From positions 2,728,001 to 2,792,000 of the forward strand of contig NC_014924.1 in assembly GCF_000185965.1 (NCBI RefSeq): a DNA stretch of 64,000 nt, given 5' to 3'. The notes under the pieces were generated by a model, which did not search any database, had not been told where the DNA came from, and saw only the letters and a program-made list of their open reading frames with translations. Positions 6,124 through 57,619 of this stretch are shown here, one piece after another (the stretch's first letter is position 1; every line of letters begins with the position of its first letter). Origin of the DNA: Pseudoxanthomonas suwonensis 11-1. Lineage in GTDB: Bacteria > Pseudomonadota > Gammaproteobacteria > Xanthomonadales > Xanthomonadaceae. The translations under genes were made by a program, and so were the position numbers.

Positions 6124-6153
6124 TTGACCCCGTCCCCGGGAACCGGCTACCTT
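6124..6153 (+). promoter_or_regulatory. putative sigma-70 promoter of the metE leader
   Basis: TTGACC (6124-6129) resembles a -35 box. TACCTT (6148-6153) could be the -10, with an 18-base spacer. The predicted transcription start (about 6160) falls at the first base of the cobalamin aptamer, which is the expected geometry. The -10 is weak (3 of 6), so the support is mainly positional. Confidence 0.45.
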
Positions 6154-6159
6154 CTCCGC

Positions 6160-6366
6160 GCCGAAGGTTTCATCGCTTCATCCAGATGTAGCGATGAATT
6201 AAAAGGGAAGTCCGGTGCGTCCTGCCCTGCAGGACAATTCCGGCGCTGCCCCGCAGCGGTAATTGGAAACGAACCCCGCCATCGCACTGGCCCACCGGCC
6301 GGGAAGCGGCGGACAGTAGGCACGCGGCCTTCGCCGCCCGTCCATGAGCCCGAAGACCTGCCCCGG
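6160..6366 (+). promoter_or_regulatory. cobalamin (B12) riboswitch upstream of metE
   Basis: The leader has the order of conserved blocks of the cobalamin aptamer: GGTTTC-like 5' closing strand (near 6166), AAAAGGGAAGTCCGGTG (about 6200-6217), the GCTGCCCCGCAGCGGTAA core (about 6244-6261), CCGGGAAG with GGACAGTAGGCACG further on, and the closing GAAGACC (6352-6358). It sits directly before the B12-independent methionine synthase gene, the standard target: cobalamin binding should switch metE off so that a B12-dependent enzyme can be used. Exact edges are approximate. Confidence 0.85.
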
Positions 6367-6448
6367 CCGGAAGACGCGTCCGTCTTCCGCCTGACCTGGA
6401 GCCTCCGCGGGGAGGTGGCCGGAGGCATCGCGTGGCCGTGGCCACGCA
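6367..6448 (+). promoter_or_regulatory. hairpin-rich expression platform between riboswitch and metE
   Basis: Three compact hairpins follow the aptamer. GGAAGACG-CGTC-CGTCTTCC (6369-6388) is perfect. CCTCCGCGGGGAGG lies near 6401-6415. GCGTGGC-CGTG-GCCACGC (6430-6447) is perfect. None is followed by a T tract, so they could be Rho-independent-like or Rho/translation-linked elements; which one switches with ligand cannot be decided by eye. The remaining 6449-6585 shows no further obvious element apart from GAGGA, about ten bases before the metE ATG. Confidence 0.4.
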
Positions 6449-8941: not shown

Positions 8942-10774
<1,833 letters not shown>

Positions 10775-11041
10775 GCCGTTCTTCCAAGCGGTGACAGGTC
10801 CGCGATTCTACCGGAGCGCACGGGCGGGCCGGCGGACGCGACACCAGGACGCACAGTCGGCGGTCAGGCGGGCGCGGGCCGGCGGGAACGGCAGGAACGG
10901 CGATGGCGCCGGTGGCCCGCCCTCCCCTCCCGGCCCAGGAGAGCCGGCGGAGGGGGTCGAGGCCCTGGCGGCCTGCAGCGGGCCTGTTGGGGCCCGGGTG
11001 CGCAATGCGCAGGGCCGCAGCCCTGCGGACCGCCCTTTCGC
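10775..11041. other. gene-free GC-rich spacer upstream of glmS
   Basis: This stretch runs from the glmS start to the first full unit of the 42-bp array. It should contain the glmS promoter, but I see no confident -10/-35 pair. Open frames here are uninterrupted only because of high GC; none has a ribosome site or recognisable protein. About 11000-11041 may hold a degenerate array unit. Confidence 0.4.
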
Positions 11042-11415
11042 GCAAGGCAGGAAGCCTTGCGGGCGGAGCTCCGGGCCTTGCGTGCAAAGAAAGAAGCTTC
11101 GCGGTTGGAGCTCCGGGCTTCGCGCGCAAGGCAAAAAGCCTTGCGTTTGAAGCGTCCGGCTTTGCGCGCAGAGCTAAAAGCCTTGTACCTGGAGCTCCAT
11201 GCCTTGCGTGTGCAAGGCAGATAGCCTCGCGCTCGGAGCTCCGGGCTTTGCGTGCAAGGCAAAAGGCTCCGCGATTGGAGCCCGGGGCTTTGCGCGCAAG
11301 GCAGGAAGCCTTGCACCCGGAGCTCCAAGCTTTGCGTGCAAGGCAGGAAGCCTTGCGGTTGGAGTTCCGGGCTTTGCACGCAAGGAAGAGCCTCGCGGGG
11401 CAGGACTTCCAGCCC
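11042..11415. repeat. 42-bp tandem array of palindromic units, eight copies plus one degenerate
   Basis: Units begin at 11042, 11084, 11126, 11168, 11212, 11254, 11296, 11338 and (degenerate) 11380. All full units are 42 bp except the fourth, which is 44. Each has GCAAGGC-AGGAA-GCCTTGC (7-bp hairpin) and then GGAGCTCC (8-bp palindrome). Junctions form GCCTTGCGCGCAAGGC-like palindromes. There are no unique spacers, so it is not a CRISPR array. It stays open in several frames as a 14-residue repeat but has no start signal. It lies just upstream of the putative enhancer and sigma-54 promoter of the exporter operon. Confidence 0.85.
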
Positions 11416-11421
11416 CCACCG

Positions 11422-11480
11422 GTGTCCGGCCTGGGGCCCGGATGGTGTCCGCCCAGGTGTCCGGCGGACACAGCGGACAC
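11422..11480. promoter_or_regulatory. putative upstream activator site: nested GTGTCC/GGACAC inverted repeats
   Basis: GTGTCC-GGC-GGACAC is a perfect inverted repeat at 11457-11471. It is flanked symmetrically by GTGTCCGC (11445-11452) and GCGGACAC (11473-11480), itself a perfect 8-bp inverted pair with nearly the same centre. A further GTGTCCGG half-site lies at 11422-11429. The centre is about 85 bases upstream of the start predicted from the sigma-54 promoter, a usual distance for an enhancer-binding protein. The likely ligand is the NtrC-family regulator at 16593; that pairing is inference. Confidence 0.6.
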
Positions 11481-11521
11481 TCCGCACCCGTCGCGAACCC
11501 TTTCCAATCAAAGGCTTGGAG

Positions 11522-11539
11522 TTGGCACGGGACCTGCAA
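11522..11539 (+). promoter_or_regulatory. sigma-54 (-24/-12) promoter of the ABC exporter operon
   Basis: TTGGCACGGGACCTGCAA matches the RpoN consensus TTGGCACG-N4-TTGCA at all but one of the conserved positions. The GG (11524-11525) and GC (11536-11537) elements have the obligatory 12-base offset. The predicted start is near 11549, about 29 bases before the adaptor ATG. A sigma-54-type activator gene lies at the end of the same cluster. Confidence 0.8.
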
Positions 11540-11577
11540 CAGGGAACCCGGACACCAACACGACCACCCGCGCCCAC

Positions 11578-12852
11578 ATGATCCCCGACACCTCCGCCCA
11601 GGACCGCCCCCTCTCTTCCGCAGCCGGCAGCCGTCCGGCGTGGCGCCGCTGGCTGCTGCCGGCGGCCGGCGCGGCGGTCGTGCTGGCCCTGGCCGGCTGG
11701 GTGGTCTCCGGCTGGAGCGCCGGCTCGCGCTCCTACGACGGCTCGCGGATCCGCATCGCCGAGGTCAAGCGCGGCGACCTGGTCCGCGACATCTCCGCCG
11801 ACGGCAAGGTGATCACCGCCAACAGCCCGGTGCTGTACGCCATCGCCGGAGGCACCGTGAGCCTGAAGGTGGTGGCCGGCGACGTGGTCGAGAAGGGCCA
11901 GGTGCTGGCGGTGATCGACAGCCCCGAGCTGCACAGCAAGCTGGTGCAGGAGGAATCGACCCTGGCCAGCATGGAGGCCGAGGCCAGCCGTGCCCAGCTG
12001 GATGCGCGCATCGCCAGCCTCAATGCGCGCAAGGCCCGCGACCAGGCCCTGATCGACCACACCGCAGCCCAGCGCGACCTGGAGCGCTACGAGCGCGCCC
12101 ATGCCGGCGGCGCGGTCTCCAACAACGAGCTGGCCCGCGCCCAGGACGAGCTGAAGAAGGCCCGGATCGGCCTGGAGGCCGCGCGCAGCGATGCCGGCCT
12201 GCAGGAACAGGGCGCGGCGCTGGATGCGCGCAACAAGCGCCTGCTGGCCGACCGCCAGAAGGCGGTGGTCGATGAGCTGCGCCGCCAGGTCGACCTGCTG
12301 ACCCTGCGCGCCCCGTTCGACGGCCAGGTCGGCCAGGTCCAGGTCTCGCAGGGCACCAACGTGGCGATCAATGCGCCGATCCTGGGCGTGGTCGACCTCA
12401 GCGAGTTCGAGGTCGAGATCCGGGTGCCGGAGAGCTTCGCCCGCGACCTGGGCATCGGCGTGCCGGCGCAGGTCACCAGCCAGGGCAAGGCCTGGCCGGC
12501 CAAGGTCTCGGCGGTGTCGCCGGAAGTGGTCAACGGCGAGGTCACCGCCCGCCTGCGCTTCGACGGGGGCCAGCAGCCGCCGGGCCTGCGCCAGAACCAG
12601 CGCCTGTCCACGCGGATCGTGCTGGACACCAAGAAGGACGTGCTGATGGTCGAGCGCGGTCCGTTCGTCGAGCAGGGCGGTGGCAACTCCGCCTGGGTCG
12701 TGGAAGGCCGCAGCGCGGTGCGTCGCCCGGTGCAGACCGGCGTCAGCAGCCTCGGCTACGTGGAGATCGTCGACGGCGCGAAGGAAGGCGACCGCATCGT
12801 GGTCTCCGGCTCCGACCAGTTCGGAGATGCAGAAAGGGTCGCAATCAATTGA
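11578..12852 (+). CDS. HlyD/MacA-like periplasmic adaptor of an ABC exporter
   Basis: A 424-aa membrane-fusion protein. One N-terminal membrane anchor (about residues 26-46) is followed by a lipoyl/barrel-sandwich half (SLKVVAGDVVEKGQVLAVID), an alpha-helical hairpin (about 125-235), the second lipoyl half (LRAPFDGQVGQVQVSQGTNV) and a beta-barrel domain. It would connect the inner-membrane permeases to an outer-membrane channel, which is not encoded here. The ATG at 11578 is chosen because the membrane anchor follows at once and the sigma-54 start lies 29 bases upstream; no strong ribosome site is visible. First gene of the exporter operon. Confidence 0.88.
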   Translation: MIPDTSAQDRPLSSAAGSRPAWRRWLLPAAGAAVVLALAGWVVSGWSAGSRSYDGSRIRIAEVKRGDLVRDISADGKVITANSPVLYAIAGGTVSLKVVAGDVVEKGQVLAVIDSPELHSKLVQEESTLASMEAEASRAQLDARIASLNARKARDQALIDHTAAQRDLERYERAHAGGAVSNNELARAQDELKKARIGLEAARSDAGLQEQGAALDARNKRLLADRQKAVVDELRRQVDLLTLRAPFDGQVGQVQVSQGTNVAINAPILGVVDLSEFEVEIRVPESFARDLGIGVPAQVTSQGKAWPAKVSAVSPEVVNGEVTARLRFDGGQQPPGLRQNQRLSTRIVLDTKKDVLMVERGPFVEQGGGNSAWVVEGRSAVRRPVQTGVSSLGYVEIVDGAKEGDRIVVSGSDQFGDAERVAIN

Positions 12853-12856
12853 TTGC
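12841..12856. repeat. perfect 16-bp palindrome over the adaptor stop codon
   Basis: GCAATCAATTGATTGC reads identically on both strands and includes the TGA stop of the adaptor gene. It could form a short hairpin at the start of the adaptor-ATPase gap or be a protein-binding site; nothing else supports a role. Confidence 0.5.
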
Positions 12857-12861
12857 TCGTG

Positions 12862-13045
12862 GTTGGTGATTCGGGATTCGTAACAGCAGAAGCAACTGCC
12901 ACCCGCTCACTCCCGGCCACCAGGCGAATCACCAATCACCAATCACCAATCACCAATCACCAATCACCAATCACCAATCACCAATCCCGAATCACGAATC
13001 ACCAATCCCGAATCCCGAATCCCGAATCCCGAATCACCAATCACA
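12862..13045. repeat. heptad repeat array (AATCACC/AATCCCG) between adaptor and ATPase genes
   Basis: Seventeen consecutive 7-mers run from 12927 to 13045, mostly AATCACC, then mixed AATCCCG. A short inverted copy (GGTTGGTGATTCGGGATTCG, 12861-12880) lies upstream, so the transcript could fold into a stem-loop. Arrays of this heptad are common between genes in xanthomonads. The array stops just before the ribosome site of the ATPase gene. Reading through it as protein gives only a low-complexity ITNHQSP repeat, so it is not coding. The same heptads recur at 57571. Confidence 0.9.
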
Positions 13046-13056
13046 AGGAACCTCCA

Positions 13057-13764
<708 letters not shown>

Positions 13765-13774
13765 GGAGGCCGCC

Positions 13775-15076
13775 ATGTTCGCCTACTACTTCAACCTGGC
13801 CCTGCGCAGCTTCCGCCGCGACAAGGCCCTGACCGCGCTGATGGTGCTGGCCATCGCCCTGGGCATCGGCGCGTGCATGACCACGCTGACCGTGTTCCAC
13901 GTGCTGTCCGGCGACCCGATCCCGACCAAGAGCGACCGCCTGTTCTACGTCCAGCTCGACCCGGCCGAGATGATGGGTTACACCCCCGGCGAGGAACCCT
14001 CCGCCCAGGTCACCCGCTACGACGCCGAGGCCCTGCTGCGCGAGAAGCGTGGCCTGCGGCAGGCGATGATGACCGGCGGCAACGTCTCGGTAACGCCCGA
14101 GCGTGACGGCCTGCCGCCGTTCCTGGGCACCGCGCGCTACACCAGCGCCGACTTCTTCCCGATGTTCGAGACCCCGATGCAGTACGGCCAGGGCTGGAGC
14201 GCCAACGAGGACGAGGCCCATGCGCGGGTCGCGGTGATCTCGAAATCGCTCAACGAGCGCGTGTTCGGCGGCGGCAACAGCGTCGGCAAGCAGCTGCGCC
14301 TGGACCAGGCCGACTTCACCGTGGTCGGCGTGATCGACGAATGGCGGCCCACGCCGCGCTTCTACGACATGTACAGCGACCAGTACGGCCAGCTGGAGGA
14401 CGTGTTCCTGCCCTTCAGCACCTCGCGCGACCTGAAGATGTCCCGCAGCGGCAGCATGGACTGCTGGGGCGACAGCGGCGGCGATGCGACCACGATCAAC
14501 GCGCCCTGCGTGTGGATCCAGTACTGGGTCGAGCTGGAATCGGCCGGCAAGGCCGGCGAGTACCGCGACTACCTGGTCAACTACTCCGACCAGCAGCGCG
14601 CGGCCGGCCGCTACAAGCGCCCGACCAACGTGCGCCTGCGCAACGCGATGGAACTGCTGGAGTTCAATCGGGTCGTGCCTCGGGACGTGGTGATGCAGCT
14701 GTGGCTGGGCTTCGGCTTCCTGCTGGTGTGCCTGGTCAACACCGTGGGCCTGCTGCTGGCCAAGTTCCTGCGCCGCGGCAGCGAGATCGGCGTGCGCCGC
14801 GCCCTGGGCGCCTCGCGCAAGGCGATCTTCGCCCAGTGCCTGGTCGAGGCCGGCACGGTCGGACTGGCCGGCGGCATCCTCGGCCTGGTGCTGTCGCTGC
14901 TCGGCCTGTGGGGCGTGCGCCAGCAGCCGGCCAGCTACGCCGAGCTGGCCCACCTGAACCTGGGCATGCTGCTGCTGACCTTCGTCCTGGCCGTGGTCGC
15001 CAGCGTGCTCGCCGGGCTGCTGCCCGCCTGGCGCGCCATGCAGGTCACGCCCGCCATCCAGCTCAAGAGCCAGTAA
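13775..15076 (+). CDS. FtsX/MacB-like ABC exporter permease, first subunit
   Basis: A 433-aa permease with an N-terminal membrane segment (about 20-42), a large MacB-type periplasmic domain (about 45-305) and three C-terminal membrane segments with the FtsX core (about 310-425), including EIGVRRALGASRKAIF. It starts at an ATG preceded by GAGGAGG. With the next gene it would form a heterodimeric channel-less pump of the MacB mechanotransmission type, carrying substrate from periplasm to the adaptor. The substrate is unknown; peptides, macrolides or lipids are family precedents. Confidence 0.88.
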   Translation: MFAYYFNLALRSFRRDKALTALMVLAIALGIGACMTTLTVFHVLSGDPIPTKSDRLFYVQLDPAEMMGYTPGEEPSAQVTRYDAEALLREKRGLRQAMMTGGNVSVTPERDGLPPFLGTARYTSADFFPMFETPMQYGQGWSANEDEAHARVAVISKSLNERVFGGGNSVGKQLRLDQADFTVVGVIDEWRPTPRFYDMYSDQYGQLEDVFLPFSTSRDLKMSRSGSMDCWGDSGGDATTINAPCVWIQYWVELESAGKAGEYRDYLVNYSDQQRAAGRYKRPTNVRLRNAMELLEFNRVVPRDVVMQLWLGFGFLLVCLVNTVGLLLAKFLRRGSEIGVRRALGASRKAIFAQCLVEAGTVGLAGGILGLVLSLLGLWGVRQQPASYAELAHLNLGMLLLTFVLAVVASVLAGLLPAWRAMQVTPAIQLKSQ

Positions 15077-15111
15077 CGGGCCGGCCGGCCCGCGCCCCAA
15101 CGGAGACCCAC

Positions 15112-16344
15112 ATGGACATCCGCCCCATCCTTTCCACCCTGCTGCGGCACCGGACCGCCGCCTCGCTGATCGTCATCGAGGTCGCGCTGACCTGCGCCAT
15201 CATCTGCAACGCGCTGTTCATGATCAGCGACCGCATCACCGAGGTCCGCGAGACCAGCGGCCTGGTCGAGGACGAGCTGGTGCGCATCCAGATCACCAGC
15301 GTCGGCAACGACCCCGAGGAGGACGCGCGCACCCGCAGCGACCTGGCCGCGCTGCGCGCCCTCCCCGGGGTCAAGGCCGCCACGGTCACCAACCAGGTGC
15401 CGTTCGTGAACTCGTCCTGGAACAACGGCGTGCGCCTGGACGCCGACCAGCAGCAGGTCACGATGAACGCGGCCATGTACATGGCCGAGGAACAGTTCCT
15501 CGAGACCCTGGGCCTGAAGCTGGTCGCCGGCCGTGCGTTCACGCCTGACGAGTACAAGGACGCCGCCAGCCTGATGGCGGGGCTGTCCGAAGGCAGCCTC
15601 CCCTCGGCGATCGTCACCCGCAAGATGGCCGAGCGGCTGTGGCCGGGCGAGGACCCGATCGGCAAGGGCTTCTACAGCGGCGACGAGCAGCCCACCCGCG
15701 TGGTCGGCGTGGTCGAGCACCTGGTCCGGCCCAGCCAGCTGGGCGGCCCCAGCGCGCGCGAGTACTCGATGATCCTGCCGCTGCGCCCGCACTACAACAT
15801 CGGCGGCAACTACGTGATCCGCACCGATCCCGACCGCCGCCAGGAGGTGCTGGAGGCGGCCAGGAAGGTGCTGCAGGCCAATGGTGCCGACCGCATCATC
15901 CTGGAGGACCAGACCAAGACCTTCGAGGAGCTGCGCTCGGAGTACTACCAAGGTCCGCGCTCGATGGCATGGCTGCTGGGCATCGTCTGCGTCGCCCTGC
16001 TGCTGATCACCGCGCTGGGCATCATCGGCCTGGCCAGCTTCTGGGTGCAGCAGCGCACCAAGCAGATCGGCATCCGCCGCGCGCTTGGCGCCACCCGCGG
16101 CCAGGTGCTGCGCTACTTCCAGACCGAGAACTTCCTGCTGGCCTCCATCGGCATCGCCCTGGGCATGCTGCTGGCATTCGCCATCAACCAGGTGCTGATG
16201 GGCAAGTACGAGCTGGCGCGGCTGCCGCTGTACTACCTCCCCGCCGGCGCGGTGCTGCTGTGGGTACTGGGCCAGCTGGCGGTCTACGCCCCCGCCCGGC
16301 GTGCGGCCTCGATCCCGCCGGCCACGGCGACCCGCAGCGTATGA
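15112..16344 (+). CDS. FtsX/MacB-like ABC exporter permease, second subunit
   Basis: A 410-aa paralogue of the preceding permease with the same layout: one N-terminal membrane segment (about 20-40), a periplasmic MacB domain and three C-terminal segments, including QIGIRRALGATRGQVLRYF. It starts MDIRPILSTLLRHRTAAS at ATG 15112, after GGAG, 35 bases beyond the first permease. Two distinct permeases plus a separate ATPase mean that the functions fused in MacB are split among three proteins here. Its stop overlaps a small downstream ORF (ATGA). Confidence 0.86.
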   Translation: MDIRPILSTLLRHRTAASLIVIEVALTCAIICNALFMISDRITEVRETSGLVEDELVRIQITSVGNDPEEDARTRSDLAALRALPGVKAATVTNQVPFVNSSWNNGVRLDADQQQVTMNAAMYMAEEQFLETLGLKLVAGRAFTPDEYKDAASLMAGLSEGSLPSAIVTRKMAERLWPGEDPIGKGFYSGDEQPTRVVGVVEHLVRPSQLGGPSAREYSMILPLRPHYNIGGNYVIRTDPDRRQEVLEAARKVLQANGADRIILEDQTKTFEELRSEYYQGPRSMAWLLGIVCVALLLITALGIIGLASFWVQQRTKQIGIRRALGATRGQVLRYFQTENFLLASIGIALGMLLAFAINQVLMGKYELARLPLYYLPAGAVLLWVLGQLAVYAPARRAASIPPATATRSV

Positions 16345-16556
16345 GCCGCCGCGCGCGCCAGCGGACGGCACGCAACGACCGCGCGACCCTCTGGTACGCG
16401 GTCGCCGCGGCGGCGGTCGCCGTGGTGTGGCTGGCCTGCGTGTTCCCGGCCTCCACGCCCGGCGCCGCCACCGACCGCCCTGGCGCTCCCCGCCTCGCCG
16501 ACGCCGGGCACGACCGCGGGTCGGATCGCGGCCACCCGCCGGCCGCGAGCAGGTAG
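16341..16556 (+). CDS. small single-pass membrane protein (hypothetical)
   Basis: A 71-aa open frame whose ATG overlaps the permease stop codon (ATGA, 16341-16344), the arrangement of translational coupling. It has a basic N-terminus (MSRRARQRTARNDR), one hydrophobic helix (about residues 18-37, TLWYAVAAAAVAVVWLACVF) and a polar tail. It ends 36 bases before the response regulator. I do not recognise a family. It may be a small accessory or sensor-linking peptide of the exporter, or a chance open frame in GC-rich DNA. Confidence 0.45.
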   Translation: MSRRARQRTARNDRATLWYAVAAAAVAVVWLACVFPASTPGAATDRPGAPRLADAGHDRGSDRGHPPAASR

Positions 16557-16592
16557 CCTTTGCGGCACGCAAACAGGATCCGTCCCGAATAC

Positions 16593-17930
16593 ATGTCCAC
16601 CATCCTGGTCATCGACGACAACCCGGCCGTCGCCACCGCGCTGGAAGTGCTGTTCTCGCTGCACGACATCGCCACCGTGCATGCCATTGGCCCGGAGGAA
16701 GGGCTGGCCCTGCTCGAGCGCGAGCCGGTGGACCTGGTGATCCAGGACATGAACTTCACCGCCGACACCACCTCCGGCGACGAGGGCCGCGAGCTGTTCG
16801 CCGCGATCCGCGACCGCCACCCGGACCTGCCGGTGATCCTGCTCACCGCGTGGACCCATCTGGAAAGCGCGGTGGAACTGATCAAGGCCGGTGCCGCCGA
16901 CTACGTGGCAAAGCCCTGGCAGGACGCCAAGCTGCTGGCCACGGTCAACAACCTGCTGGAGCTGTCCGAGGCGCGGCGCGAGCTGGACCAGCGCCGCCAC
17001 GGCGAGCGCCGCCGGCGCGAGGACCTCACCCGCCGCTACGACCTGCGTGGCGCGGTATTCGCCGACCCGGCCAGCGAGCGGGTGGTTGCGCTGGCCTGCC
17101 AGGTGGCGCGCTCGGAACTGCCGGTGCTGATCACCGGACCCAACGGCAGTGGCAAGGAGAAGATCGCCGAGATCATCCAGGCCAACTCGCCGATGCGCGA
17201 CGGCCCGTTCGTGACCCTCAACTGCGGCGCGCTGCCGGCCGACCTGATCGAGGCCGAACTGTTTGGCGCCGAAGCCGGCGCCTACACCGGCGCCAACAAG
17301 GCGCGCGAGGGCAAGTTCGAGGCCGCCGACGGCGGCACCCTGTTCCTGGACGAGATCGGCAACCTGCCGGCCGCCGGGCAGATGAAGCTGCTGCGGGTGC
17401 TGGAGACCGGCCGCTTCGCGCGGCTCGGCTCCAACCGCGAACGCCAGGTGCGGGTACGCGTGGTCAGCGCCACCAATGCCGACCTGCCGGCGATGATCCG
17501 CGAGGGCGGGTTCCGCGAAGACCTGTACTACCGGCTCAACACCATCGAGCTGTCGATGCCGCCGCTGGGGGAGCGTCCCGGCGACGTGCTGCCGCTGGCC
17601 GAGCACTTCGGCGCCGGCGGCAAGCCGCTGTCGCCGGCGGCGGTCGCGGCGCTGCAGCGCCATTCCTGGCCGGGCAATGTGCGCGAGCTGCGCAACGTGA
17701 TCCAGCGCGCGCAGCTGCTGGCGACCGGCCCGCGGATCGAGCCGGACGACCTGGCCCTGCCACGCGCGCAGGCCACCCGCCCGGGACCGGCGCGCGAGCC
17801 GGAACGCGAGCAGATCGAGGCCGCCCTGCAGCGTGCCGGCGGGGTGATCGCCCAGGCCGCCGCGGAACTGGGCATGAGCCGCCAGGCGCTGTACCGGCGC
17901 ATGGAGCGCCATGGCCTCAAGAGTCCCTGA
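16593..17930 (+). CDS. NtrC-family sigma-54-dependent response regulator
   Basis: A 445-aa activator with three domains. The receiver (1-120) has Asp9/Asp10, phospho-acceptor Asp52, Thr85 and Lys107. The AAA+ domain (about 155-380) has Walker A GPNGSGKE (182-189), the sigma-54-contact loop as GAYTGA (229-234; usually GAFTGA, Tyr is also seen) and Walker B TLFLDE (about 249-254). A Fis-type helix-turn-helix (AAAELGMSRQALYRRM) closes the protein. It likely activates the sigma-54 promoter at 11522 through the inverted repeats at 11445-11480. The start is MSTILVIDDN at 16593; its ribosome site is weak. Confidence 0.93.
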   Translation: MSTILVIDDNPAVATALEVLFSLHDIATVHAIGPEEGLALLEREPVDLVIQDMNFTADTTSGDEGRELFAAIRDRHPDLPVILLTAWTHLESAVELIKAGAADYVAKPWQDAKLLATVNNLLELSEARRELDQRRHGERRRREDLTRRYDLRGAVFADPASERVVALACQVARSELPVLITGPNGSGKEKIAEIIQANSPMRDGPFVTLNCGALPADLIEAELFGAEAGAYTGANKAREGKFEAADGGTLFLDEIGNLPAAGQMKLLRVLETGRFARLGSNRERQVRVRVVSATNADLPAMIREGGFREDLYYRLNTIELSMPPLGERPGDVLPLAEHFGAGGKPLSPAAVAALQRHSWPGNVRELRNVIQRAQLLATGPRIEPDDLALPRAQATRPGPAREPEREQIEAALQRAGGVIAQAAAELGMSRQALYRRMERHGLKSP

Positions 17931-17936
17931 CGCCCG

Positions 17937-19289
17937 ATGCTCCGCCGCACCCTGACCCTGCGACTCTTCCTGCGGCTGCTGCCGGTACTGGCGCTCGCCG
18001 CGGCGCTGCCGTGGGCCTTCGCCTACTGGATCAACCACGGCTGGATGCTGGCCGCGCTGTCGGTCGCGATCCTGCTGGCATTGATGTGGTGGAGCCTGCA
18101 CCGCGCCCTGGCGCCGCTGCGGGCCCTGTTCCGCGCACTTGCCGGCAGCGTCAATACCTACCGCGACGGCGAGTTCAATTTCGGCGTGCACTGGGAGAGC
18201 CGCGACGAGGTCGGCGACCTGGTGCGCGCCCACTCCGCGCTGGGCGAGGTCCTGCGCCAGCAACGCCAGGAACTGGCGCAACGCGAGCTGCTGCTGGACA
18301 CCATGGTCCAGAACACGCCGGTGGCGATGGTGCTGTGGGCCGAGGGCGGCGATGGCCTGGCGCGGGTGGTCTACGCCAACCTCGCCGCGCGCAAGCTGCT
18401 CAACGACGGGCGCAAGCTCGAAGGCCAGCACATGGACCAGGTGCTGGAAGGCCTTCCGGCCGAGCTGTGCGAGGCCGTGGCCCGTGGTGGCGACAGCCTG
18501 TTCGGCGTGCGCGGCGAGGACAGCGGAGACGGCCCGGAAGAGGAGGAAGAGGTCTACCACCTCTCCCGCCGCCGCTTCACCCTCAACGGCCGCCGCCACG
18601 AACTCCTGCTGCTGCGCCTGCTCACCCCCGAGCTGCGCCGCCAGGAAGTGCAGACCTGGAAGAAGGTGATCCGGGTGATCAGCCACGAGCTCAACAACTC
18701 GCTGGCACCGATCGCCTCGCTCGCCCACTCCGGCGCCGAACTGGTGCGGCGCGGGAAGTACGAGCGCCTGGGCGAGGTGTTCGCCACGGTCGAGGACCGT
18801 GCCCGCCACCTGGAAGGCTTCATCCGCGGCTACGCACGCTTCGCCAAGCTGCCGCAACCGCAGCTGCAGGCGGTGGACTGGGCCGATTTCCTGGCCCGCC
18901 TGCAGCGGCAGATCGGCTTCGAGCTGGACGGCGAGGCGGCCGACCTGCGCGCCCGGATCGACGTGGCGCAGATGGAGCAGGCCATGCTCAACCTGCTGAA
19001 GAACGCGCACGAGGCCGGCCAGGAAGCCCAGCCGGCGCAGGACGAGGTGCGCGTGCGCCTGCGCCGCCTGCCCGGCTGGACCCGGCTGGAAGTGCTGGAC
19101 CGCGGTCCGGGCATGAACGAGGCGGTGCTGCAGAACGCGCTGCTTCCGTTCTATTCCACCAAGCGCAACGGCACCGGCCTGGGCCTGGCCCTGTGCCGCG
19201 AGATCATCGAGGCCCATGGCGGCCGCCTGTCGCTGCAGAACCGCTCCGACGGCGGCCTGTGCGTGGCGGTGATGCTGCCGGAGCCGTAG
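17937..19289 (+). CDS. NtrY-like membrane histidine kinase
   Basis: A 450-aa sensor kinase six bases downstream of the response regulator, evidently its partner. Two membrane segments (about 11-30 and 35-53) are separated by almost no periplasmic loop, so sensing may occur in or near the membrane. A HAMP-like linker (about 54-105) and a PAS-like region (about 120-225) lead to the phospho-acceptor His250 in VISHELNNSLAPIA and to an ATPase domain with NLLKNAHEAG (N box), DRGPGMN and GTGLGLAL (G boxes). An acidic run (EEEEE, about 201-205) in the linker is unusual. Last gene of the exporter cluster. Confidence 0.9.
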   Translation: MLRRTLTLRLFLRLLPVLALAAALPWAFAYWINHGWMLAALSVAILLALMWWSLHRALAPLRALFRALAGSVNTYRDGEFNFGVHWESRDEVGDLVRAHSALGEVLRQQRQELAQRELLLDTMVQNTPVAMVLWAEGGDGLARVVYANLAARKLLNDGRKLEGQHMDQVLEGLPAELCEAVARGGDSLFGVRGEDSGDGPEEEEEVYHLSRRRFTLNGRRHELLLLRLLTPELRRQEVQTWKKVIRVISHELNNSLAPIASLAHSGAELVRRGKYERLGEVFATVEDRARHLEGFIRGYARFAKLPQPQLQAVDWADFLARLQRQIGFELDGEAADLRARIDVAQMEQAMLNLLKNAHEAGQEAQPAQDEVRVRLRRLPGWTRLEVLDRGPGMNEAVLQNALLPFYSTKRNGTGLGLALCREIIEAHGGRLSLQNRSDGGLCVAVMLPEP

Positions 19290-19323
19290 GTCGCGGGCGC
19301 TGGTGCGGCCGCGGACGTCGGCA

Positions 19324-19847
19324 TTACCCGGGTTGTCCCAGCCTGCGCTGCATCACCACCCGCAGGCGCATCGGGAAGCCGAGGCCGTGCTCCTCCGCGA
19401 GCGTGGCGCGCAGGCCGGGCGTGTATCGCGCCGGCTCCAGCACCTCGAACCCGGCGCTGGCATAGAAGGGCGCGTTCCATGGCACGTCGCGCAACGTGAC
19501 CAGGGTGATGCGCCCGAAACCTTCCCCTGCCGCGCTGGCGCAGGCACGTTCCAGCAGTGCGCGGCCCATGCCGCGGCGCCCGTGGTCCGGATCCACGTCC
19601 ATCTGCACCAGGTACGCCTCGCCGTCGACGCACGAGTAGAGCGCGTAACCCACCGCCCGCCCGTCGGACTCCGCAACCCACAGCCGCCCGCGGGCCGCTG
19701 CTTCGACATGGTCATCGGCCGCCAGGGTGCTGCGCGCGAACACCGGGTAGGCCTCGTGCCCGCGGAGCAGCTCGCAGGCGCGCCCCCGATGGCGACCAGG
19801 GTCGCGGCGTCGGCGGCGCGGCCGGGACGCAGCGACCACCCGGTCAC
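19324..19847 (-). CDS. GNAT family acetyltransferase with apparent frameshift near its start
   Basis: The GNAT core is clear: [18 protein letters not shown] (acetyl-CoA loop) and [15 protein letters not shown]. The continuous frame begins at GTG 19839 with an implausible Arg-rich N-terminus. In another frame, a GTG at 19847, overlapping the glmU stop as GTGA, encodes a natural-looking start ([20 protein letters not shown]) that breaks at a run of five C (19783-19787), after which [13 protein letters not shown] continues in the core frame. One extra or missing base there, real or a sequencing error, explains this. Substrate unknown. It ends 35 bases from the kinase stop, convergently. Confidence 0.72.
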
Positions 19848-21214
19848 TTCTTCTTTTTCTCCGGCCGCTTCCAGCCTTCGACGATGGACTGGCGCGCGCG
19901 GGAAATGGTCAGGGTGTCGGCCGGGGCATTGCGCGTGATCACCGAGCCGGCGCCAATCGTCGCCCCGGCGCCGATCTCCACCGGCGCCACCAGCGAGGAA
20001 TTGGAACCGACGAAGGCGCCATCGCCGATGACCGTGGCCGACTTGTTCACCCCGTCGTAGTTGCAGGTGATGGTGCCGGCGCCGATGTTCACCGCGGCGC
20101 CGATCGTGGCATCGCCCAGATAGGCCAGGTGGTTGGCCTTGCTGCCCACGCCCATCACCGTCTTCTTGGCCTCGACGAAGTTGCCGATGCGCACGCCGTC
20201 GGCCAGCACGGTGCCCGGGCGCAGGCGCGCGAACGGGCCGACCTGGGCCGCACCCTCGGTGACCACGCCTTCCAGGTCGCAATGCGCCAGCACCTCGGTG
20301 CCCGGGCCCAGGCGCACGTCCTTGAGCCGCACGAACGGGCCGATGCGTACGCCGTCGGCCAGGTCGACCTCGCCTTCCAGCACCACGTTGACGTCGATCT
20401 CCACGTCGCGCCCGACCCGCACCGTGCCGCGCTGTTCGACCCGCGCCGGATCGAGCAGGCGGGCGCCGGCCAGGCACAGCTCGCGCGCGCGGCGCAGCTG
20501 CCAGGCGCGCTCGAGCTGCGACAGCTGCCAGGGATCGTTGGCGCCCTCGGCCTCGATCGGGTCCTCGACCCGCACGATTTCCGCCGGGTTGTACTCGGCC
20601 GCGGCCATCGCGAACACGTCGGTGAGGTAGTACTCGCCCTGCGCGTTCTCGTTGGACAGGCGCGACAGCCAGCGCTTCAGCGCGTCGGACTCGGCGGCGA
20701 TGATGCCGGTGTTGACGATGCCGATGCGGCGCTGCTCCTCGCTGGCGTCGCGGTGCTCGACGATCTCCGCGACCCGGCCCTGCGGGTCGCGCACGATGCG
20801 GCCGTAACCGGTCGGGTCCTCCGGCTCGGCCACCAGCACGCGCAGCAGGCCGTCGGCCTGCAGCAGGCGGCGCAGGGTGTCGGCCGAGGTCAGCGGCACG
20901 TCGCCGTACAGCACCAGCACGTCGGCCAGCTCGGGGATCCCGGGCATGGCCTGCTGCACGGCGTGGCCGGTGCCCAGCTGCCGGGCCTGCTCCACCCACA
21001 CCAGGTCGTCCTGGCCGGCGAAGGCATCGCGCACCGCGTCGCCGCGGTGGCCATGGACCACGTGGATGCCGGCAGGCTGCAGCCGGCGCGCGGTGTCGAT
21101 CACGTGCGCCAGCATCGGCCGCCCGCCCACCGGCTGCAGCACCTTGGGCAGGTCCGATCTCATGCGCTTGCCCTCGCCGGCGGCAAGGATCACCACGTGC
21201 AGGGGCTGGGTCAT
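19844..21214 (-). CDS. glmU: bifunctional GlmU (GlcNAc-1-P uridyltransferase / GlcN-1-P acetyltransferase)
   Basis: A 456-aa enzyme, the same length as E. coli GlmU. It starts [20 protein letters not shown], the nucleotidyltransferase signature; [16 protein letters not shown] follows. The C-terminal half is a left-handed beta helix with hexad repeats ([29 protein letters not shown]) and acetyltransferase residues in [20 protein letters not shown]. It makes UDP-GlcNAc for peptidoglycan and LPS, downstream of GlmS in the pathway. Its stop overlaps the restored start of the acetyltransferase gene, suggesting a two-gene transcript. It ends with a basic tail (RPEKKKK). Confidence 0.96.
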
Positions 21215-21337
21215 GGAGCGGCGCTTCTCTATGCGGAAAGCGGTGATTCTATCCCTCCCGGCACGTTGCCCCCACGGTTCACGTGGCGCAAAGGTGCCCG
21301 GTTTAGACTCGCGCCCATTCCGCCGACGGATCCACCC

Positions 21338-21727
21338 GTGCCGATGCTCCTCCTGCGCCAGGGCAGCCAGTACCTCGCCTTCGGCCTGCTGCAGCTGCTG
21401 GTCGACTGGGCCATGTTCGTGGCCGCGACCGCGCTCGGGCTGGATGCGGTGCCGGCGAACCTGCTGGGCCGTACCAGCGGCGCCATGATCGGGTTCTGGC
21501 TCAACGGCCGCTACACCTTCGCCGGCGAGGAAGGTGCCCGCCTGGGCTGGCAGCGCTTCCGCCGCTTCGGCGTGCTGTGGATCGCCATGACCATCACCAG
21601 CACGGTGCTGGTGCACGAGGTCGAACGCCAGCTCGGCCTGCATTCGGCATGGCTGGCCAAGCCGCTGGTCGAAGGCGGCCTGGCGATGGCGACCTTCTTC
21701 CTGCTGCGCCGCCTGGTCTACCGCTGA
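21338..21727 (+). CDS. GtrA-family membrane protein
   Basis: A 129-aa protein if started at GTG 21338, or 127 aa from ATG 21344 ([14 protein letters not shown]); GGA before the GTG slightly favours the former. It has four hydrophobic segments and the GtrA pattern [30 protein letters not shown] and a C-terminal basic LLRRLVYR. GtrA proteins help to flip polyprenyl-linked sugars in cell-surface polysaccharide modification. It is divergent from glmU and convergent with trpG, whose stop is six bases away. Confidence 0.88.
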
Positions 21728-57528: not shown

Positions 57529-57570
57529 CTAAGCCCGCAAAGCGAAGCGCATCCGGGCCACGCGCTTACG

Positions 57571-57619
57571 AATCCCGAATCCCGAATCCCGAATCCCGAA
57601 TCACCAATCCCGAATCCCG
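57571..57619. repeat. heptad repeat array (AATCCCG), seven units
   Basis: Seven consecutive 7-mers: four AATCCCG, one AATCACC and two AATCCCG, ending four bases before the stop of the sensor kinase gene. Same family as the array at 12927. It lies 38 bases beyond the right target duplication of the IS and probably belonged to the original intergenic space. Confidence 0.9.

Follow-up and report, generated by a model that had tools for sequence, protein, structure and literature searches.

A probable sigma-54 envelope regulon in Pseudoxanthomonas suwonensis 11-1 that would join a MacAB-like exporter operon to an unlinked secreted-protein gene

Operon content and promoter

The 64,000-nucleotide (nt) stretch of Pseudoxanthomonas suwonensis 11-1 analysed here (contig NC_014924.1, positions 2,728,001 to 2,792,000; hereafter the window) carries an operon for a MacAB-like exporter, in which a periplasmic adaptor, an ABC ATPase and two unlike permeases are followed by an NtrC-family response regulator and a histidine kinase, all behind a -24/-12 sigma-54 promoter element and an array of GTGTCC/GGACAC half-sites (Table 1). 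An earlier note, made from the sequence without database searches, had read the locus as a self-contained exporter with its own two-component system, closed into a loop in which the regulator would activate the operon that encodes it. The adaptor, ATPase, two different permeases, NtrC-type regulator and kinase that it listed were borne out by Pfam, and the promoter element and nested inverted repeats were read in the sequence as it had described them. In contrast, neither 'self-contained' nor 'closed loop' fits an unlinked second gene that lies behind a promoter of the same architecture, and this second target makes the closed loop too narrow a description. Judged from sequence, the operon probably belongs to a two-component sigma-54 envelope regulon, in which a MacAB-like exporter and an unlinked secreted protein would stand under one membrane-sensing switch.

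Table 1 Features of the exporter operon, in coordinates of the window
Feature	Position	Strand	Basis
GTGTCC/GGACAC half-site array	11422-11480	.	five TGTCC/GGACA inside; putative regulator-binding region
-24/-12 sigma-54 promoter element TTGGCACGGGACCTGCAA	11522-11539	+	11/12 fixed positions of TGGCACGN4TTGCW
Periplasmic adaptor (membrane fusion protein, RND_mfp/MacA-like)	11578-12852	+	Pfam HlyD_D23, HlyD_3; TIGR01730 126.2 bits, cut-off 94.9
ABC ATPase, separate polypeptide	13057-13764	+	Pfam ABC_tran 108.5 bits; best NCBIfam DarD, below cut-off
Permease 1	13775-15076	+	MacB_PCD + FtsX; TIGR03434 (ADOP) positions 7-401 of 803, 175.7 bits, cut-off 622.3
Permease 2	15112-16344	+	MacB_PCD + FtsX; TIGR03434 (ADOP) positions 412-801 of 803, 225.4 bits, cut-off 622.3
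Small open reading frame, 71 amino acids, between permease 2 and regulator	16341-16556		no family match
NtrC-family response regulator	16593-17930	+	Pfam Response_reg 72.9, Sigma54_activat 216.3, HTH_8 51.4 bits, all over cut-offs
Histidine kinase	17937-19289	+	HATPase_c; sub-threshold PAS_8; HELNNSLAPI H-box; two hydrophobic stretches, ~five-residue loop (topology by eye)

Within the half-site array, an outer repeat formed by GTGTCCGC (11445-11452) and GCGGACAC (11473-11480) encloses an inner GTGTCC-GGC-GGACAC (11457-11471), and an additional GTGTCC lies at 11422-11427. The regulator was searched for in 60 genomes, that of P. suwonensis 11-1 itself and 59 relatives, with matches of 64-97% identity in 40 of the relatives, four of them of partial length (a 56% partial match in G023 was not counted). 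Adaptor starts could be placed at 32 of the 40 fetched loci, leaving out L045, L048, L057, L063, L066, L067, L070 and L071 and giving, with the window, 33 upstream regions for comparison. In 31 of these 33 regions a -24/-12 element with a score of 10 or more out of 12 lay within 200 nt, against 0.45 expected from dinucleotide shuffles, and TGTCC/GGACA half-sites numbered 144 against 16.3 expected, with enrichment reaching p <= 0.05 in 28 individual regions. The earlier note had staked its sigma-54 claim on conservation of the repeats and of the -24/-12 element in related genomes, and since both are conserved that claim stands; the strength of this conservation upstream of orthologous operons in several genera supports sigma-54 control together with an activator bound at the repeats.

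Read by eye across orthologous loci, the core of the array is often GTCC and GGAC separated by 2-4 nt, with more GGACAC copies towards the promoter, and the order and spacing of half-sites differ between genera. In 20 of the 31 scored operon promoters the GGAC core closest to the -24 box begins 48-50 nt ahead of it (mode 49). The arrangement GTCC-GC-GGAC recurs at two Stenotrophomonas loci and one Pseudoalteromonas locus, the last with a poor -12 half. No half-site array was seen in 10 upstream regions drawn from loci outside Gammaproteobacteria and one Burkholderiales metagenome-assembled genome; four of these regions (L212, L213, L216 and L217) have a -24/-12-like element scoring 10, above which L212 carries a single GGACAC.

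A second promoter at an unlinked gene

Across the P. suwonensis 11-1 genome, the pattern GGACAN{28,58}TGGCAYN6TGC gave five distinct sites (six rows) and the reversed patterns used as controls gave 0 and 0. One site is that of the operon, one precedes a glnA-like gene, one lies among flagellar-looking genes (by eye), one is unassigned and the fifth is at 133635-133697. Since the operon supplied the pattern, finding the operon again is no evidence; what counts is the second hit and its conservation. This second promoter (G000:C1:133635-133697, minus strand) lies at 0.13 Mb, against 2.74 Mb for the operon, and both its 63-nt span and its core, TTGGCACGGGACCTGC, are identical to those of the operon. 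Above it stands the cluster TGTCC..TGTCC..GGAC-GTCC-GGACA..GGACAC, and ~145 nt beyond it begins a 135-amino-acid frame with a signal-peptide-like start (from reading the sequence, with no prediction program), henceforth the secreted-protein gene. Searched as TTGGCACN6TGC, the element occurs at 12 sites in the genome, of which only those at the operon (five) and the secreted-protein gene (four) have at least four TGTCC/GGACA in the 140 nt above; two further sites precede pilA-like and glnA-like genes (named by eye).

The 135-amino-acid protein has no Pfam match, and its residues 1-117 match positions 1-122 of 146 in the XAC0231 family (NCBIfam NF052303), a model whose name gives no function. 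That model matched 36 of 149 genomes of the host family, 20 of them over its cut-off, and the protein itself found matches, several of them weak, in 23 of the 60 genomes, own included. The promoter was compared at 43 loci from 43 genomes, excluding weak or duplicate hits (L151, L152, L154-L156, L301, L308, L309 and L312) and matching genomes without a locus. A -24/-12 element lies upstream of the secreted-protein gene in 41 of these 43 genomes (all except G005 and G069), against 0.8 expected from shuffles, at 134-157 nt before the start codon and in 38 of the 41 at 144-149 nt. Within the 110 nt above the element, each of the 41 carries three or more GTCC/GGAC cores, for a total of 212 cores against 48.5 expected from shuffles. 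The GGAC core nearest to the -24 box lies at a modal distance of 48 nt, with 32 of 40 loci at 47-50 nt (L147, L300 and L306 excluded).

A GGTG-N16-CACC palindrome lies within 330 nt of the secreted-protein start in 42 of 43 loci (counted with no shuffle control), in a conserved TTAGGTGTaTTACtTTACTACCACACCAC block, and in P. suwonensis 11-1 it falls in L101:9081-9640, outside the window. It resembles what we take to be a GntR/YtrA-type operator, so that a second input besides sigma-54 is possible. At the glnA-like promoter (G000:C1:105412-105485), a TGTCC-N9-GGACA palindrome lies just upstream of the sigma-54 element, along with NtrC-like sites. NtrC control of the secreted-protein gene is unlikely, since GCACC/GGTGC, presumably the NtrC-type site, was found by eye at the glnA-like promoter and not at the second target.

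Regulator, kinase and exporter beside known systems

The NtrC-type regulator with a GAYTGA loop that the earlier note described is confirmed by REC, AAA+ and Fis-type helix-turn-helix domains over their cut-offs. In 13 aligned sequences D8, D9, D52, T85, K107 and the Walker A residues are invariant, and the loop reads GAYTGA in 12 and GAYTSA in L064. Eight aligned kinases, compared by eye, have intact H-, N- and G-boxes and in every case a loop of about five residues, with W-[ILM]-[DN], between two hydrophobic stretches, in agreement with the kinase of almost no periplasmic domain noted before; BceS is likewise a short-loop kinase. The best NCBIfam match of the regulator is PrsR of the PrsK/PrsR pair (XrtA/PEP-CTERM) at 326.3 bits, below the cut-off of 502.6, while the operon kinase reaches 74.5 bits against a cut-off of 300 and the gene context is unlike. 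The P. suwonensis 11-1 genome has two genes with Sigma54_DBD and, besides REC-only proteins, four other activator-like proteins found with the regulator: one is NtrC (683.3 bits, over cut-off), two resemble, by C-terminal helix and neighbourhood, what we take to be PilR and FleQ, and L187 has no NCBIfam match at 1e-60. In L186 (G006) the kinase frame is intact, but what remains of the regulator beside it is its C-terminal part alone, with a glgB-like sequence (named by eye) after it, an arrangement that reflects either a rearrangement or an assembly join.

The exporter resembles MacAB-TolC in its adaptor (over the TIGR01730 cut-off), its MacB_PCD + FtsX permeases and its ABC ATPase, and permease 2 finds its best PDB matches in MacB chains. 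It differs in having a separate ATPase and two unlike permeases instead of a single MacB, and its proteins fall short of the NCBIfam equivalog cut-offs for MacA and MacB (MacB NF007826: 210.9, 46.8 and 51 bits for the separate ATPase and permeases, against 966). Pfam revealed no outer-membrane factor among the operon genes, the rest of the genome not having been searched for one. In the duplicated ADOP permease model, permease 1 corresponds to the first half and permease 2 to the second, both below cut-off, but here the halves are encoded by separate genes. The darobactin exporter DarBCD supplies the best NCBIfam match of the ATPase, yet all three of its cut-offs exceed the scores obtained (DarB 36.9 of 700 bits for permease 2, DarC 49.3 of 450, DarD 266.3 of 375). 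BceRS-BceAB of Firmicutes, as presented in excerpts of PMC5985334, similarly combines a MacB-related transporter with a two-component system, whereas the regulator here is of the NtrC/sigma-54 type and the transporter consists of two MacB-like permeases plus an adaptor.

Exporter composition varies among relatives. Between permease 2 and the regulator, L045 has, by eye, one or more additional permease-like pairs, which suggests duplication of the permease pair in some genera, and large gaps in L041, L048, L052 and L063 may mean extra permease-like genes of the same kind. G037, a relative at order level, encodes a permease with 45% identity to permease 1 (5608401-5609708, minus strand) at a great distance from the regulator, and a promoter of the same kind, GGACA...TTGGCACGTCGATTGC, ~2.1 kb upstream of it speaks for sigma-54 control; G023 has a similar promoter ~2.5 kb upstream of a 68% homologue of permease 1, the intervening genes being unread in both. 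At 10 loci of an 80-locus set, most of which lacks such neighbours, the regulator stands beside genes that match the adaptor, the ATPase and one or more permeases, and six of the 10 come from Bacteroidota, Opitutia or KSB1 (L213, L214, L216, L217, L221 and L241).

Three candidates for further structure within the operon were rejected. The 71-amino-acid frame, which the earlier note had counted as a small membrane component, lacks conservation across orthologous loci, and we left it out of the operon's parts because it has no family (zero Pfam or NCBIfam matches), was matched at one of 40 orthologous loci and there partially (44% over 34 amino acids), and has no space at the locus with the most similar regulator (97%), where permease 2 and regulator are only 76 nt apart. 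A second sigma-54 promoter before the regulator was absent, with none scoring at least 10 in the 30 relatives' gaps of 60-1500 nt (three score 9) and a best score of 8 in the window's own gap. An intrinsic terminator dividing the operon found no support, as the 2 terminator-like matches in 11000-19500 lie below the shuffle mean of 3.0 and the sole plus-strand match falls within the kinase gene.

Around the operon, glmS-like (8942-10774) and glmU-like (within 19844-21643) genes, named by eye, form the borders, and 26 of 40 orthologous stretches have matches to both. About 8.7 imperfect 42-nt tandem units (11035-11398), with internal GCAAGGC...GCCTTGC palindromes, stand between the first of these genes and the exporter promoter; no such array was among the matches listed by BLAST for orthologous loci up to L047. 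The gap between adaptor and ATPase holds an (AATCACC)n simple repeat (12925-13044), with similar repeats in the same gap in L033, L034, L036 and L038. Elsewhere in the window are a (CGAATCC)n repeat at 57569-57619 and a cobalamin riboswitch (6147-6379, 99.4 bits) upstream of a metE-like gene (named by eye).

Mechanism, alternatives and implications

The regulon that we favour would work as follows. With two helices and a tiny loop as seemingly its only non-cytoplasmic part, the kinase would read a signal in or at the inner membrane and phosphorylate the adjacent NtrC-type regulator, the residues for which are present. The regulator would then bind the GTCC/GGAC arrays ~45-100 nt upstream of the -24 box, as their conservation and spacing suggest, and open sigma-54 promoters at its own operon and at the unlinked XAC0231-like secreted-protein gene, so that exporter and switch would rise together through autoregulation. 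The exporter itself is probably a MacAB-like Type VII machine built of a separate ATPase, an unlike permease pair and an adaptor, which would need an outer-membrane channel from elsewhere.

Several observations weigh against a regulon of two targets. The TGTCCN{0,12}GGACA palindrome is unspecific, with 51 occurrences in the P. suwonensis 11-1 genome against 12 for the control, and the combined pattern gave 218 hits against 99 reversed-control hits over the 60 genomes, so that single hits in relatives mean little. In 5 of the 33 operon upstream regions the half-sites are only weakly enriched (p > 0.05). The distribution of the two targets is uneven: a clear secreted-protein homologue occurs in only 17 of the 40 relatives with the regulator; G009 retains the second target and its promoter, with no orthologue of regulator or permease 1 found there; G006 retains the second target beside a regulator gene that is broken, only its C-terminal part standing next to the intact kinase frame; and in G005, which does have the operon, the second target is present without the promoter. 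The 135-amino-acid protein reaches 67.6 bits, short of the 140 required by the XAC0231 family model, and the only connection drawn between regulator and second target is a shared motif and a shared spacing.

Some of these observations would be expected under other explanations. The 23 of 40 relatives that have the operon but no clear secreted-protein homologue fit a self-contained detoxification loop, in which the regulator serves its own operon only, the exporter expels an external membrane-active compound, and the second promoter is a coincidence or is read by a different regulator; the computational finding, in the portion of PMC12316311 consulted, that FtsX-type antimicrobial-peptide permeases are under sigma-54 control points the same way. 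We nevertheless consider such a loop distinctly unlikely, as the second promoter shares core, 63-nt span and half-sites with the operon, and its element and cores are kept in 41 of 43 genomes. The persistence of the promoter in G009, where no orthologue of the window's regulator was found, would also be accounted for if another enhancer-binding protein, reading the same half-site, controlled the secreted-protein gene alone or jointly. The other activators in the P. suwonensis 11-1 genome argue against this: they comprise NtrC and the PilR- and FleQ-like proteins, which have other known targets, and L187, which matches no NCBIfam model at 1e-60; we therefore hold this explanation to be improbable. 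Variation of half-site order and spacing between genera could indicate that a repressor or nucleoid protein occupies the half-sites while the regulator has its sites elsewhere. That seems very improbable, given that the half-sites occur together with the sigma-54 element and that the nearest core stands at an almost constant distance from the -24 box, 20 of 31 operon promoters and 32 of 40 second-target promoters falling within 4 nt of each other.

A further question is what the secreted protein would do within the proposed regulon. The shared promoter architecture suggests that it is most likely cargo or a periplasmic partner of the exporter, and it thereby offers an alternative to the lipid or membrane-active compound proposed in the earlier note. 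According to excerpts of PMC5985334, MacB-type machines accept periplasmic substrates and the STII toxin reaches MacAB through Sec, and for this reason the protein readily suggests itself as cargo. No less likely than cargo is a protective role in the periplasm: the protein could bind or buffer a noxious compound, or modify the envelope, as a parallel envelope-stress arm, to be compared with the VC1639-VisP case of Vibrio cholerae (PMC5636140). This reading, which overlaps with the regulon described above, is a serious contender at somewhat less than even chances. It is consistent with a promoter architecture common to both targets in the absence of gene linkage, and with the 23 relatives mentioned above that have the regulator and no clear secreted-protein homologue; nothing speaks directly against it, although periplasmic uptake by MacAB-type machines after Sec export, as described for STII, fits cargo equally well. 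More speculative, and on present evidence rather doubtful, is two-step secretion under one switch, with the XAC0231-like protein crossing first by Sec and then by the MacAB-like exporter and the kinase inducing both through sigma-54. If this were true, the cell would release an envelope-protective or antagonistic repeat protein.

Among the titles and abstract openings listed by searches of an open-access library, none described this operon, its motif or its unlinked target, and 'XAC0231' returned 0 papers; nor did the consulted parts of PMC7280030 (Xanthomonas RpoN1/RpoN2) and PMC4494728 (GntR/YtrA motifs) contain anything on the operon. Closest in subject is PMC12316311 (2025), which in the sections seen reports, from computation, that COG0577/FtsX-type permeases of Gammaproteobacteria, Opitutia and Bacteroidia are enriched for sigma-54 promoters, calls it first evidence, and does not name the regulator, its sites or the unlinked target of this operon. 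Where the same sections report statistical enrichment, the P. suwonensis 11-1 operon would provide a concrete case of sigma-54 control over envelope transport.

To our knowledge, many MacAB-like exporters lack a known substrate. A conserved regulator motif that points to an unlinked partner gene makes the question of exporter substrate one for direct genetic testing, and offers, in a small exported protein of unknown function, a testable lead to the role of the exporter. The half-site motif can likewise be used to read the regulon in other genera.

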